53,690 nt of DNA, taken from assembly GCA_021371995.1 (NCBI GenBank), contig JAJFVA010000032.1:1-53690 (forward strand). Reading direction: 5' to 3'. Of the stretch, positions 12,110 to 24,212 are shown piece after piece (the first letter of the stretch is position 1; the number at the start of each line of letters is the position of its first letter). The DNA is from Methanoregulaceae archaeon (GTDB lineage Archaea > Halobacteriota > Methanomicrobia > Methanomicrobiales > Methanospirillaceae). The notes below the pieces were generated by a model. That model had not been told where the DNA came from and did no database searches. It saw only the letters and a program-made list of their open reading frames with translations. Both the position numbers and the translations under genes were made by a program.

Positions 12110-14557
12110 TCAGTGAGGTACCCATGCAAGGAAAAATGACGTGATCTCGATCCCGGTCTTTTTGGGTTTCACGACAATCTCCCCGATCTCCTTCGCCGCG
12201 TTCTCCCATTGGGACGTGATTGCCGCTGCTTCTTTCTCAAACTCTTCCTTAAGGTCACGAATTTCATCCGAGAGGGCACGGGCATTCTCTTCTGCCTCTC
12301 TTGCACTCATCCCGGCAGAACTGCTCTGGCGGTACTTGCTTGCGGCGGTCGACCCGGATCGGATACTTTTCCGTCCAAGGAGAACCCCGAGGACCGATTC
12401 CCCGGCCGAGAGCATCGCTTCCCGCTTCCGTGACTCGGCATCGGCATGTTTCCGGTCTACGGTCATCTCGGCCTTCCGAAGCCGGTCACCGAGCGTGTTG
12501 ATCTTCCCCTCGTAGCGTTTCCGGAGGGTATCCACATCCGCATCCCTCCGTTCCCGCGTGGCAAGGCGGACCCTGAGCAGGAACTCGTTCTCCGGTTCAC
12601 CTGGCTTTGAGATGAGTTTTACGACAGGACAGGAGTAGAGCTTCAGCTCCTGCGAATGAACGAGTGAGTTTGTAAGAGCCTGTTTTTCTGATGCAAATTT
12701 TTTCAGGGCGCGAATGGTCTCGGGTGTCACGGAATACCGGGCATCGGGAGACGGGGATGACGAGAGATCAGGTGGGGTTACGGGAGAGGGCAGGGCACTC
12801 TCCCATACTACGTCCCCCCCCGGTGAGAACGGTGCGAGCACGGAGAATCCTCTTTCAGAATCCTGCTCCAGCTTCGGGCTCGAGTAATGGATGCGGCCAG
12901 CGGCAAACACCGCCGGTTCGTACAGCACCGTCGCTCCCTGGACTTTCCCGGGCTTTGATCGAAGCACATCCAATTCTGCGGTCTCGCGGGTGACCCGCAC
13001 AGGGAGGTAACGCTGCGGGATCTCAGGGGGGAGGGCAGGGGGAAGTGCTGATGCCCCGGACGCAGGTTCTGCAGGAGCTACCTGCGGGACTGCCGCTGAT
13101 TGAGGCGTTCCTGATACTATTGCATCCGGTGTTCTGCCTTTCATCAGGACCCGGACCTGCTCACGGCTGAGCGGTCCCCGGAGGTAACTCATCGCCCACC
13201 GGGTCTGGAAGATGACCGGGGCGATCTCGTGCACGTTATGCAGGAGAAAGACGCGGTTATCCAGCGATGAGAGGGTATCGGAAAGCGTTGCCCGGGAGAA
13301 TGTGCTTCCCTGGACAGCCCCTTCAAGCCCGTCAAGAACCCGCTCGCGGTCCTGCACGGTCTGGAGCCTCCCGATGAACCAGGTACCGGTATTCGCGAGC
13401 CCCTTGTAATCGAGGTCGACCGGGTTCTGTGTCGTCAGCACCACGCCGAGACCAAACGCCCGTGCCTGTTTCAACAGGGTGAGCATCGGCTCCTTGCTCG
13501 GCGGGTTTGCAACAGGGGGGAAGAACCCGAAGATCTCATCCATGTAGAGAAGGGCACGGAGACTGGTCGTCCCGGTCTGGGACCGGACCCATGCAAGGAC
13601 CTGGTAGAGGAGGAGCGTGACAAAGAACATCCGCTCGTCCTCGTTCAGGTGTGCAATATAGAAGATCGAATGGCGTGGTTTTCCCTCTCTTGTGGAGAGA
13701 AATCCCGGGATATCCAGCGGCTGCCCGTTCATCCATGACTGGAATGCGGGAGCAGCGATGAGGTGATTCAGCCTCATCGCGAGGGGGAATCGCTCCTTTG
13801 CCGGGAAGAAGGTCTCGATATCAAACGCACCGACCTGTCTTAAGGGCGGGTTCTGGATCGCCTTGATCAGGCTGACCAGATCGAGATCTTTCCCGTTTCG
13901 CCAGAAGTGTTCGAAGAGTGAGGAGAGGAGGATATGCTCGCGGGAACTGAGCGGATCGGCATCCACTTTGATCAGGCCGAGGAGAGCCGTCACGGTCCCG
14001 GAGATCTTCTCCCTGAGCAGTTCGGCGTCGGTCTCCCAGCTGAGCGCTGGTACGGCAAAGGACTGGAGGACAGAGACCGGGATGCCGGCATCACTCCCGG
14101 GGGTATAGACCACGACATCCGCAGCGTCACGGAGGGTCCGGATCCGTGCCCCGTCCTGGCCCCAGGGAGTGAGTCCGTTCTTCCAGGATTCTGCCTGTTG
14201 TGCGGCATATCCTTCGGGGGTCATTCCCTTCCTTCGTGCGTCATCCGGGTTGATCCAGGGGAGAAAATCGGCCGGCGCGAGCTCGGGGAACATGAGCAGC
14301 CGGTTGGTGATATCCCCCTTGGGATCGATGATGATCGCGGGCACACCGTCGATTGCCGCTTCTTCGAGCAGGTCGACGCAGAGCCCGGTCTTGCCGCTCC
14401 CCGTCATCCCGATACAGACGGCATGGGTGGTAAGGTCGCGGGAATCGTACATCACGAGCCGGTCAAGCAGTTTTCGTTCTGCCAGGCTGTACTCTTTTCC
14501 CAGGTAGAATGCGCCCAGTCTCTCAAAGTCCATGGAAAACAAGTACTCTATGCTCAC
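12110..14557 (-). CDS. HerA/FtsK-like DUF87-type ATPase with coiled coil
   Basis: 815 residues. Walker A is GMTGSGKTG at about 50-58 and Walker B is LLYMDEIFGFF at about 340; a sensor-like TTQNPVDLDYKGL follows, as in HerA/VirB4-type ring ATPases. The middle has a Pro/Ser-rich linker (about 490-620). The C-terminal third has a long charged coiled coil (about 650-790, KRYEGKINTLGDRLRKAE onward) and ends in a hydrophobic strand. Such proteins pump DNA or move polypeptides, and bacterial relatives of about 800 residues are widely annotated only as ATP-binding proteins. No NurA nuclease or secretion gene is adjacent. The ATG at 14557 is kept as start, although an in-frame ATG at 14533 is possible. 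Confidence 0.8.
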   Translation of the reverse strand: MSIEYLFSMDFERLGAFYLGKEYSLAERKLLDRLVMYDSRDLTTHAVCIGMTGSGKTGLCVDLLEEAAIDGVPAIIIDPKGDITNRLLMFPELAPADFLPWINPDDARRKGMTPEGYAAQQAESWKNGLTPWGQDGARIRTLRDAADVVVYTPGSDAGIPVSVLQSFAVPALSWETDAELLREKISGTVTALLGLIKVDADPLSSREHILLSSLFEHFWRNGKDLDLVSLIKAIQNPPLRQVGAFDIETFFPAKERFPLAMRLNHLIAAPAFQSWMNGQPLDIPGFLSTREGKPRHSIFYIAHLNEDERMFFVTLLLYQVLAWVRSQTGTTSLRALLYMDEIFGFFPPVANPPSKEPMLTLLKQARAFGLGVVLTTQNPVDLDYKGLANTGTWFIGRLQTVQDRERVLDGLEGAVQGSTFSRATLSDTLSSLDNRVFLLHNVHEIAPVIFQTRWAMSYLRGPLSREQVRVLMKGRTPDAIVSGTPQSAAVPQVAPAEPASGASALPPALPPEIPQRYLPVRVTRETAELDVLRSKPGKVQGATVLYEPAVFAAGRIHYSSPKLEQDSERGFSVLAPFSPGGDVVWESALPSPVTPPDLSSSPSPDARYSVTPETIRALKKFASEKQALTNSLVHSQELKLYSCPVVKLISKPGEPENEFLLRVRLATRERRDADVDTLRKRYEGKINTLGDRLRKAEMTVDRKHADAESRKREAMLSAGESVLGVLLGRKSIRSGSTAASKYRQSSSAGMSAREAEENARALSDEIRDLKEEFEKEAAAITSQWENAAKEIGEIVVKPKKTGIEITSFFLAWVPH

Positions 14558-19826: not shown

Positions 19827-20363
19827 ATGAAATTGCATGTAGTAGGTATAGGGACATTTGTACTCATCATTGCGCTGCTTCTCTGCGCCGGGTGCACCCA
19901 GCCGGTCACTCCACCAGCCACACAAACCCCGACAGCAACCCCTGTTCCGTTACAAAAGGATATTGTGCAGACTGCAGTCGCTGATGGGAGGTTTACCACG
20001 CTTGTTGCGGCTGTGCAGGCTGCAGACCTTGCTACAACCCTGAGCGGTCCCGGTCCGTTCACAGTTTTTGCGCCTACGGATGATGCCTTCAAGAAGCTTC
20101 CGCCAGGGACTGTCGAGACGCTTCTGAAGGATCCGAAAGGCCAGCTCAGCCAGATCCTGCTCTACCATGTTGTGCCAGGAAAACTGATGGCCGCGGATGT
20201 CGTGAAACAGACATCACTCGCGACCGTACAGGGAAAACCATTAAACGTAACAGTTCAGAACCAGACCGTGATGGTTGACGGTGCAACGGTGGTCATCACT
20301 GATATCGAAACGAAAAACGGGGTTATTCATGTGATCGACTCCGTGATGCTTCCACCTGCCTGA
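19827..20363 (+). CDS. Fasciclin (FAS1) domain lipoprotein
   Basis: 178 residues. A signal peptide with lipobox LLLCAGC puts the modified cysteine at about residue 24. A Pro/Thr-rich spacer follows (about 25-45). One FAS1 domain occupies residues about 48-177, with the classical motifs [29 protein letters not shown] and [13 protein letters not shown]1 proteins act in surface adhesion. The protein sits outside the membrane, tethered by the lipid or N-terminal helix. The flanking peroxiredoxin remnant runs convergently. Confidence 0.88.
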
Positions 20364-20431
20364 TGAAAGATTCCCTTTTTTTCGCTCTGATCAGATCTGG
20401 GCTAATGGATATTTGTACCAAATATAAAAGA

Positions 20432-21041
20432 TCAAATCTTTTTGAAACACGGATACCAGTCTTTGCATTCGTATCCCTTGAGAACCGCTTGTCCATCTCG
20501 GAGTTGTTCTTTGGCGCCGGGACGACCACCTTTTCCCCTGGTTGCCAGTTTGCCCGGGTAGCGACACCGTACTTATCAGTCATCTGAAGAGCTTTGATCA
20601 GTCTGATGATCTCCGGAATATATCGACCGTTGGTGAGGGGGTAGTAAATCATAGCCCTGATAATCCCCTGATCATCTATGAAGAAGACCGTCCTGATAGT
20701 AGCAGTTGAGCTCTGTCCGGGATGGATCATTCCGTACTTCTTCGCCACCGCAATATCGAGATCGGCTATGATAGGGAAAGGGATGTCAACCCCTATCTTG
20801 TCCTTCACATTCTTAATCCAGGAAAGGTGGGAGTGAACGCTGTCGATGGAAAGCCCCATCAGCTGTACATTCAGACTCTTTAATTCATCAGCCACACCAG
20901 CAAATGCCATAAACTCGGTGGTGCAGACCGGCGTGAAATCTGCCGGGTGAGAGAACATCACCACCCATTTCCCCTTCAAATCATGATACCATTCGTGGTT
21001 AGAGCCTTAAAATCAGGAGCCGGCCCCCAAATGATTGGCAT
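20432..21041 (-). pseudogene. Peroxiredoxin (Prx6/archaeal 1-Cys type) with two frameshifts
   Basis: Three frames assemble into one peroxiredoxin of about 200 residues. The N-terminus (ATG at 21041) reads MPIIWGPAPDFKALTTNG, then breaks after position 20989, where one base is missing. The next frame continues YHDLKGKWVVMFSHPADFTPVCTTEF with the peroxidatic Cys intact. It breaks again after 20486, where a second base is missing. The last frame reads VLKGYECKDWYPCFKKI and stops at 20432, the expected C-terminus of archaeal Prx6 (GYEC-DWW-C). So the gene would not give a normal peroxiredoxin unless these are sequencing errors. The family reduces H2O2 and organic peroxides in the cytoplasm. Confidence 0.8.
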
Positions 21042-21135: not shown

Positions 21136-22170
21136 TCATTTCTTCCTGGCGTTCCCGGACTCATCCTGAGTGGATGATGGTTTTCTGCTCTTCCAGACAT
21201 CCCTGCCTCGCTCTGTAATATCCGCCGGCAGGTCTGCAAGCTCGAACGGATATGGCGCAAAGAAGGTCTGATCCATGAGACTTGGCTCCTGGAACCGTAT
21301 CACCCATGACCGGAGCAGGTCCCGGGGTTCGGCAAGGGTGGCATGGCCGTTTTTATACCGATCGATCAACCTTAAGCAATACTCTTTTTCCTCGGTCGTG
21401 ACACGATTGCTAAATTGCCCGAATGCATGCTGGAGAACGTTGATATTATTGGTATAGCGGGGAACGTGTGAGAGCGCAGCACAGAGCATCTCGCGGTAGT
21501 GAATAAACAATGTTTCCGGATCAGTCTTAGCCCTGTTTGCAACCCACTGCCCCATTTCGCGCATGAGCTGCTGGTGACAGGCCATCAGGAGGAACTTGTT
21601 GGCTGCATGAAATCGCGCAAGCGCTTCCCGATCCCTGGTTATCTCCATCTCCCTGAATGCTGCAAGGGTAAAGATACCGGTGAGGAAATGGTCACGAATC
21701 CGCGTATTAATCAGGCGCAGTTCATCTTCAATAGGCAGATATGAGAACCGCTTCAGCACTTCCCGGGCAAAAAAGCCGGCAGACCGTTCAATCGCCATGG
21801 ATTTTTCTGCTGATGGATACACCTTGACGTTGCTGGTCCCGGACGTGGGGGAACCCCCTTTCAGGATAAAACCGTCTACAGGAGGAAGGCTGTCCAGAAA
21901 CCGGGTGGCGAAGCTGGTCATATTATTCGTAACATCCCGCCCGGTTGCAGGCTGGATGAGATGGTCGACTCCCTCGATCCGCACAATCCTGACCGTTGCC
22001 CGCGGGATACCAAGACCTATCTCAACCTCCGGACAGACGGGTATGAAGTCAACAAAGGATTTCAAGTGGTCCACCGTAGGAGAAGGTATCTTGGAACCGT
22101 CATACCGGCAGGGATCAAACTCGATACACCTGCTGACCACCACACGCGGCCGGGGATACTGTCGAACCAT
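21136..22170 (-). CDS. DUF523/DUF1722 (YbgA-type) protein
   Basis: 344 residues. The N-terminal half (about 1-165) is DUF523-like: RVVVSRCIEFDPCRYDGS, DFIPVCPEVEIGLGIPR, and FILKGGSPTSGTSNVKVY. The C-terminal half (about 175-320) is the DUF1722/YbgA domain with RFHAANKFLLMACHQQLMREMG. Both domains are widely annotated and have cysteines in the first half (about 15, 21 and 46); their biochemistry is unknown. E. coli YbgA lies next to a photolyase gene; no photolyase is visible here. It lies between the peroxiredoxin remnant and the PPOX-like gene in a redox-themed stretch. Confidence 0.8.
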   Translation of the reverse strand: MVRQYPRPRVVVSRCIEFDPCRYDGSKIPSPTVDHLKSFVDFIPVCPEVEIGLGIPRATVRIVRIEGVDHLIQPATGRDVTNNMTSFATRFLDSLPPVDGFILKGGSPTSGTSNVKVYPSAEKSMAIERSAGFFAREVLKRFSYLPIEDELRLINTRIRDHFLTGIFTLAAFREMEITRDREALARFHAANKFLLMACHQQLMREMGQWVANRAKTDPETLFIHYREMLCAALSHVPRYTNNINVLQHAFGQFSNRVTTEEKEYCLRLIDRYKNGHATLAEPRDLLRSWVIRFQEPSLMDQTFFAPYPFELADLPADITERGRDVWKSRKPSSTQDESGNARKK

Positions 22171-22274
22171 ACGATATCGCTCTCATTTCCATTTCGGCAG
22201 GATAGTTATGAATTCTTGTGTACGATCATCATTATCACATCCTCTGAAACATAATCAATGCGAGGAATCATGGT

Positions 22275-22754
22275 ATGAAGGAACCTATCAAAATCCCAAA
22301 AATGCCGAAAGCAGAGTATGACTCCCTGATCAAACGGCAGCATGTATCACGGATTGCGTTTGGTGCATGTGAGCACCCCTATATTGCTCCGTTCATGTAT
22401 GTGTTTGACGGAAAATACCTTTATTTCCTTTCCACAAAATATGGCAGAAAGATCGAATATTTCAAAAGCAATCCGAAGGTCTCTGTCGAGATAGAGGAAT
22501 ATGCTCCTGACCTTTCTGCATTTACCTTCGTGAGCCTTCAGGGCTTCCTGGAGGAGGTCAAGGACCCCTTACAGAAGAAAGAAGTGCGAAAACTCTTTGT
22601 GGATATGATAAAGAACAAGACCCTTTCACCTCGTGTGTTGAGTGCTTTGGGGCATTCTCCCAGCGAGCCGATCGAAGCCCTCGAGAGGGAAGAACGATCG
22701 ATGGTCTGGAAACTTGTCGGTGTAAAGGATATTGTAGCACTGAAAAACGGTTAA
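22275..22754 (+). CDS. Pyridoxamine 5'-phosphate oxidase-like flavoprotein
   Basis: 159 residues. The split-barrel FMN-binding fold is indicated by LIKRQHVSRIAFGACEHPYIAPFMYVFDGKYLYFLSTKYGRKIEYFKSNPKVSVEIEE, matching the PPOX family of small flavin reductases/oxidases. The typical lengths and the F-x-S-x-x-G-x-L (FVSLQGFLEE) strand agree. The exact reaction (FMN, F420 or heme substrate) cannot be read from sequence. The neighbourhood of broken peroxiredoxin and rubredoxin genes suggests a redox role. No ribosome binding site is obvious. Confidence 0.75.
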   Translation: MKEPIKIPKMPKAEYDSLIKRQHVSRIAFGACEHPYIAPFMYVFDGKYLYFLSTKYGRKIEYFKSNPKVSVEIEEYAPDLSAFTFVSLQGFLEEVKDPLQKKEVRKLFVDMIKNKTLSPRVLSALGHSPSEPIEALEREERSMVWKLVGVKDIVALKNG

Positions 22755-22826: not shown

Positions 22827-23173
22827 TTAGGTTGGCACGAATGCACTCTTTCCAATCGTTGCGTAAACGCCACAGACAGGGCACAGGTAGTTGTCCGGCA
22901 AATCTTCAAATGCAGTATCCGGTGTTATCGCGTTCTTTGGCTCTCCTCTTTTCCGGATCGTACACATACCCGCAGGCAATGCAACGGTACCGACCGGATG
23001 GAACGTCAAGTGGGCTGAACATGGTCTTTTCGATCTTTGCTTTTCCACATACAGGACAAGTGTAGGTGCTGGGCAGAACTTCAAAGGCGGTTCCCTGAGG
23101 GATCCCGTTCTTCGGTTCACTCCTTGGCCGGGTCGTAACTATAACCCCAGGCTTCACAAATATAAGGCTTCAT
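22827..23173 (-). pseudogene. Tandem two-domain rubredoxin with two frameshifts and a lost Cys
   Basis: Reading from the ATG at 23173, the first domain starts [17 protein letters not shown]. An extra A at 23121 shifts the frame; the next frame gives [15 protein letters not shown] and [14 protein letters not shown]. The second domain starts [16 protein letters not shown], and an extra A at 22947 shifts the frame again, giving [26 protein letters not shown] and a stop at 22827. Removing both single As restores a clean KGEPKN in each domain. The first domain also has CEAW where CEAC is expected, so one of its four iron ligands is missing. Rubredoxins pass electrons to rubrerythrin, superoxide reductase or flavoproteins. 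This copy cannot make the normal protein. Confidence 0.82.
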
Positions 23174-23378
23174 CTTTTTCAAAGCAGTTCCCCACATTAC
23201 ACAGGGATGAAGAGCGGATAGAGCAACAAAGATACGTGCTCCAGTAACTTCCTCGCGGTCGTTGTCGCTGTTCAAAGGGATTGTTCTATCAATAACGATT
23301 CATACGCCCATTGGTACTAAAATAATGAGTGCCTGAATATTCCTCGTTCTGCTGAAAGGGGGTATCTCCTCTACCTGC

Positions 23379-24212
23379 TCACTCAGAGACGGGCACGAGT
23401 TTGCCTTTCAGTTTCCCCTCGATATCGAGCTTCATCAGTTCAATAACGTTATTGACTACTCCTTTCGTGTAGCTGATTACCAGTTCATCGTTTTTGAAAA
23501 ATTCAGCATCCATACTGCTGTTGAACTCGGGCCCATGCGTCCTGAAGGCGATTCCAAACGGGGCCATGACAAACCCCATCTGCTGGAAATGGAGATAGAT
23601 GTCCATCGCGGTCTTCATTGCTCCGTCCTCGTGGCCATTGACAAGGATCCCTACGATCTTCCCCTCGGTCAGGCCCGGTTTCACGAGATGGAAGAGGTTC
23701 TGCATGCAGGTCGTCCTATCAAGGAAGTCCTTGAGCCGGGCTGACATGGTGTTCCAGTTGATGGGGGATGCAACGATGACGGCTCTTGATGCAGCGATCA
23801 TCTGATGGAAGGCAGGCATATCATCCTCTGAATTCCTGCAGGGATAGGTACAGTACTCGGCCTTCATGCTGTAGCAGCACCAGCAGTGATCGATCCGGTA
23901 TTCATTCAGGTTGAAACGGCGGTAGCTGATGCCCTTTGCCCTGAGTTCGTCTTCTGCGAGGTCGACCATGTAGCCGGTGTTGTTGGACCGGTGGGTGCTG
24001 CCATTGATCAGCAGGACGTCACATTTTTCACCATCGTAGGAAAGCGGGGTATATTTTTTATCCGGAAGAAATTCCCGGGATGAGCTTCCGCATTTCGGGC
24101 ACCCTTTCGGCGGCTTCTCTCCGGTCATGACAAAGCCGCATACCAGGCATCGCCATCTCTTTTCCCTGCCCGCACCAGCCGCGGTTTTCTTTTTGGATTG
24201 TGTTTGTCCCAT
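23379..24212 (-). CDS. Rubredoxin-like / flavodoxin-fold iron-sulfur flavoprotein fusion
   Basis: 277 residues. An N-terminal rubredoxin-type zinc/iron ribbon (about 20-50, WRCLVCGFVMTGE, then CPKC) is followed by an NADPH-dependent FMN reductase fold (about 60-270): VLLINGSTHRSNNT for flavin phosphate binding, and IVASPINWNTMSARLKDFLDR. Near residues 108-128 lies a Cys-rich segment HCWCCYSMKAEYCTYPC, which is in the position of the 4Fe-4S ligands of the methanogen iron-sulfur flavoprotein (Isf) but differs in spacing. The protein may shuttle electrons to O2 or H2O2. It lies next to the rubredoxin remnant and could be its partner. The ATG at 24212 lies before a basic stretch typical of a leader. 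Confidence 0.75.
   Translation of the reverse strand: MGQTQSKKKTAAGAGREKRWRCLVCGFVMTGEKPPKGCPKCGSSSREFLPDKKYTPLSYDGEKCDVLLINGSTHRSNNTGYMVDLAEDELRAKGISYRRFNLNEYRIDHCWCCYSMKAEYCTYPCRNSEDDMPAFHQMIAASRAVIVASPINWNTMSARLKDFLDRTTCMQNLFHLVKPGLTEGKIVGILVNGHEDGAMKTAMDIYLHFQQMGFVMAPFGIAFRTHGPEFNSSMDAEFFKNDELVISYTKGVVNNVIELMKLDIEGKLKGKLVPVSE

Follow-up and report, generated by a model that had tools for sequence, protein, structure and literature searches.

A recently decayed tandem rubredoxin gene, probably a pseudogene, in a Methanoregula-type archaeon

Introduction

Rubredoxins are known to transfer single electrons. In the two-iron rubredoxin AlkG of Pseudomonas putida GPo1, iron is held only loosely by the N-terminal domain, which is dispensable (PMC8918992). 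In methanogens, rubredoxin is listed among the components of oxygen defence, together with rubrerythrin, superoxide reductase and F420H2 oxidase (PMC4338226). The interrupted gene fucA1 of Saccharolobus solfataricus, which is full length in most relatives, is recoded by a -1 shift (PMC8211752).

Here we analysed a stretch of 53,690 nucleotides from a Methanoregulaceae archaeon (assembly GCA_021371995.1, contig JAJFVA010000032.1), called the window below, which holds a tandem rubredoxin gene with an interrupted reading frame. We put the probability that this copy is a recently decayed pseudogene in a Methanoregula-type species at roughly 0.9.

Results

Lesions in the window copy

On the minus strand of the window, from about 23182 to 22827, we found the remains of a two-domain (tandem) rubredoxin gene, the pieces of which lie in three frames. 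These pieces match the Pfam Rubredoxin profile (PF00301) with 42.9, 34.2 and 20.8 bits, the first two passing the cut-off of 23 bits. In neither domain could the four cysteines (CxxC...CPxC) be read in a single open frame, as domain 1 has CEAW and a frame change splits both domains. Rfam and tRNA searches at the locus gave no matches, and neither did a DNA search against plasmids. The following features were assigned to the gene, all on the minus strand:

22827..23182 (-): decayed tandem rubredoxin gene, from alignment to intact orthologues
23147..23149 (-): TGG (Trp) replacing the second Cys ligand of domain 1 (CEAW); this column, 12, is Cys in 12/12 intact proteins
23120..23126 (-): first one-base gain (alignment), in the RGEP loop of domain 1, yielding the TGA stop 23119-23117
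22944..22953 (-): second one-base gain (alignment), in the homologous RGEP loop of domain 2
22827..22831 (-): third one-base gain/substitution (alignment), at the 3' end, bringing the stop one codon early

Compared to the intact genes, the window copy has exactly one extra base per domain, located in the same loop in both. The first frame stops at its TGA directly after YDPAKE, and the third frame ends at the stop 22829-22827, near which the window reads CCTAAATAA and the intact genes CCGAATAA. The initial annotation had described a tandem rubredoxin gene with two one-base insertions and a CEAW in place of CEAC, and both observations were confirmed, the TGG codon 23149-23147 being real. It had named the A at 23121 and the A at 22947 as the inserted bases. 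One gain per domain stands, but not the exact positions: in domain 1, the A at 23125 or 23124 is as good a placement and the exact extra base cannot be fixed, and in domain 2, taking out an A of the AAAA at 22952-22949 is as good a solution as taking out 22947 and restores the RGEPKN of all relatives exactly. The KGEPKN that had been proposed as the restored motif is not ancestral. The proposed span of 22827-23173 was too short at its 5' end; the site of the relatives' ATG corresponds to 23182-23180, where the window has TTG, and an in-frame ATG follows at 23173-23171.

Furthermore, the window copy differs at six columns that are invariant in the 12 intact proteins (C12W, I15S, G21S, P29Q, D35V and G85A). 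The same test on each of the intact proteins gave 0 to 3 changes.

Lesions upstream of the gene

Two further differences are located upstream of the start codon:

23200..23201 (-): 17-bp deletion relative to genome G010, removing the leader palindrome TGTTGC-N5-GCAACA
23224..23231 (-): TATA-like stretch, CTTTGTTG in the window and CTTTATTA in relatives; CTTTA is found in 5/5 intact genus-level relatives

The palindrome is recognisable, though not always perfect, in five genus-level relatives; among the genus-level copies, it is missing only in the window, and so is the ATG start. Examples in the leaders of intact orthologues are those upstream of 4001 in record L096 and in L099 and L100. The palindrome is possibly an operator or an RNA hairpin. 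As a regulon-wide operator it was rejected, and no regulon is claimed: matches across the genus were scattered and only modestly more frequent than in the reversed control.

Together, the third gain at the 3' end, the change from ATG to TTG, the 17-bp deletion of the palindrome, the changed TATA-like stretch and the six changes at invariant residues extend the damage beyond what had been annotated initially.

Intact orthologues in related species

The closest relative at this locus is G010, in which the rubredoxin gene is intact and adjoins the same neighbour. Its protein matches PF00301 with 138.9 bits, and both domains match the profile in intact relatives. Twelve or more related archaea have an intact orthologue. 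Within the genus these are four further species (G010, G004, G008 and G001), and outside it they include G016 from another genus of the family and G036 from the same order. It is also intact in at least eight further records of the Methanomicrobiales (L099 and L101-L107), including the isolate Methanospirillum stamsii; the G and L sets overlap, as L096, L097, L098, L100 and L103 correspond to G010, G004, G008, G001 and G016, respectively. None of the intact relatives carries the extra bases, which was the outcome of the alignment with related tandem rubredoxins that the initial annotation had called for. Because the gene is intact in relatives at the same locus, we take the open gene to be the ancestral state. 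The type to which the decayed rubredoxin belongs is present in only 5/12 genomes of the genus.

Genomic neighbourhood and proposed transfer

The genes on the side of the 3' end are intact:

22275..22754 (+): PPOX (pyridoxamine 5'-phosphate oxidase-like) gene, intact, convergent; also paired with the rubredoxin in G010, G004 and G008
21136..22170 (-): DUF523 (2-thiouracil desulfurase)/DUF1722 gene, intact, flank of the shared segment

The PPOX gene lies tail to tail with the rubredoxin gene in the window, G010, G004 and G008, and syntenic orthologues with the PPOX neighbour are thus available in three species. Located 73 bases from the rubredoxin, it shares 96% protein identity and 95% DNA identity over 480 bp with its G010 counterpart, with 0 indels. 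Relative to G010, the spacer 22171-22274 is also free of indels, and several are found within the rubredoxin unit or flanking it.

Across the genus, the PPOX-rubredoxin pair has a patchy distribution. In G011, where the neighbouring genes match those found in G004, the desulfurase-like and DUF523/DUF1722 flanks are the same, with a different short gene between them. The DUF523/DUF1722 gene of G005 is closest to that of the window over most of its length (91%), with transporter genes beyond it, and neither a PPOX nor a rubredoxin gene adjoins it. G010 has its own complete DUF523/DUF1722 gene on C58, which is 78% identical to that of the window. Beside its PPOX-rubredoxin pair (locus L059, G010:C136, 8641-8880), it also carries a truncated and frameshifted DUF523/DUF1722 fragment with 91% identity to the gene in the window. 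This fragment suggests that DNA was transferred within the genus, from one species to another. We infer the direction: the segment would have passed into G010 from a lineage close to that of the window, at a time when the rubredoxin was still intact.

When the window is compared with G010, synonymous divergence is 0.13-0.20 for PPOX and the DUF fragment vs 1.49 for the paralogous rubredoxin, and the low values fit a transfer. For the decayed rubredoxin itself (window 22827-23182 vs L059 7638-7994) it is 0.86, about four times that of PPOX (0.20). This higher value may reflect a later recombination event in one of the two alleles. A similar excess in the rubredoxin was seen between G004 and G008 (0.93 vs 0.23).

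Elsewhere in the window, the gene at 12110-14557, encoding 815 aa, has a relative in G010 (C96:7369-9807) with one TAG within the match.

Selection and timing

A change was counted as private when only one of the six closest sequences carried it. The window copy has 11 nonsynonymous and 5 synonymous private changes vs 5 and 16 for the five intact genes pooled (Fisher p = 0.009). Relaxed constraint is seen in these changes and in the six invariant residues, and more weakly in the branch model: in a custom codon likelihood model, the window branch has an omega of 0.15 vs 0.07 for the background (likelihood ratio p = 0.066). Since an omega of 1 along the whole window branch was rejected (p = 3e-4), a long-dead gene is excluded; the gene was therefore under selection over most of the branch and its decay is recent. 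We read these patterns as those of a rubredoxin gene that stayed functional through most of its independent evolution and then broke.

Discussion

A probable recent pseudogene

The ancestor would have been a functional protein of ~118 aa with two rubredoxin domains and two Fe(SCys)4 sites. A working protein would no longer be produced from the window copy. In G010, the RGEP loop is encoded in each domain by a purine tract with a four-G run (AGGGGTGAA and AAAGGGGAGAG), and the one-base gains may have arisen by slippage in this tract, which would be expected to strike both domains at the homologous site. The chance that both gains fall at homologous sites is about 3% by a rough estimate, which could hint at something systematic. 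Gene conversion between the domains was considered as a source of the shared insertion site and rejected, as the identity of domain 1 to domain 2 is 67% in the window and 65-73% in intact genes.

The loss was probably tolerated, because a paralogous tandem rubredoxin is found in all 12 genomes of the genus, intact in that of the window (G000 C38:102109-102432), which also holds several single rubredoxin domains. The decayed rubredoxin is probably a dispensable accessory gene, and its loss is of an ordinary kind.

Alternative explanations

An assembly or sequencing error is the alternative that survives best, although we consider it improbable. On this view, the organism has an intact gene, and the fault lies in a poor consensus over about 400 bases. 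Some platforms typically introduce one-base gains into purine runs, and the purifying selection on the gene for most of its branch is also in line with such an error. However, next to the gains the G runs are interrupted by G-to-A changes, which speaks against simple run-length miscalls, and the damage includes the 17-bp deletion, the start codon change and the Cys codon change. Moreover, the PPOX gene 73 bases away is free of indels, and long genes elsewhere in the window have open frames, such as those encoding CODH (652 aa) and a HerA-like protein (815 aa). The initial annotation had argued for decay and not just a read error. We come to the same conclusion, because syntenic orthologues are intact, private changes are in excess (11:5 vs 5:16), the promoter, leader and start codon carry lesions and the adjoining PPOX is clean.

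Programmed +1 frameshifting at two homologous sites, giving the full protein, is very improbable. Both shifts are indeed located in the same loop of both domains, and fucA1 provides an archaeal precedent of an interrupted gene. Nevertheless, the shift sites are not conserved, as the extra bases occur in no intact relative. As we read the sequence, a +1 slip at AAG/GAG before the TGA would also lack good re-pairing, and two serial events would leave very little product. The iron ligand of domain 1 is gone, and the promoter and leader are damaged as well. A variant in which the two +1 shifts yield a little full protein, with domain 1 re-purposed after the ligand loss, is just as doubtful. Least credible of all is that a surviving frame, of 97 aa or 83 aa, encodes a shortened protein with a function of its own, for example a rubredoxin of one domain: both frames are open, but each contains only part of each domain, the CxxC pairs of one iron site lie in different frames, and the pieces cover Pfam positions 14-43, 17-44 and 1-16. 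The four ligands of a domain are thus never found together in one frame.

Implications

The recent pseudogene is a well-documented case of gene loss in a methanogen, caught early: selection acted on the gene for most of its history, and the promoter, the leader, the start codon and both domains carry lesions. Genome-based inferences about oxygen defence should not count this rubredoxin copy as present.

Comparison with known rubredoxins

The intact protein would be an electron carrier that probably acts in the detoxification of oxygen or peroxide. A peroxiredoxin is encoded near the decayed rubredoxin (20323-20979). Upstream and on the same strand (23379-24212) lies a gene for an NADPH-dependent FMN reductase with an N-terminal rubrerythrin-type rubredoxin-like domain, which is absent at that place in G010. 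Both neighbours fit an oxygen-defence setting.

Within the same genome, the paralogue on C38 shares the two-domain build and about 61% identity with the decayed copy. However, it lies at another locus, represents a different conserved type, which is distinguished by its C-terminus (CPVCALDPK...), and is not decayed. Both domains of the intact relatives are close to the Desulfovibrio-type rubredoxins of PF00301 with solved structures (1rdv and 1rb9), from which they differ in their tandem arrangement, and the window copy differs further in having no whole-domain open frame and in lacking one ligand. Like AlkG, compared here by description, the ancestral protein combines two rubredoxin domains in a single chain, whereas AlkG has an alkane hydroxylase as partner and belongs to aerobic bacteria and not to a methanogen.
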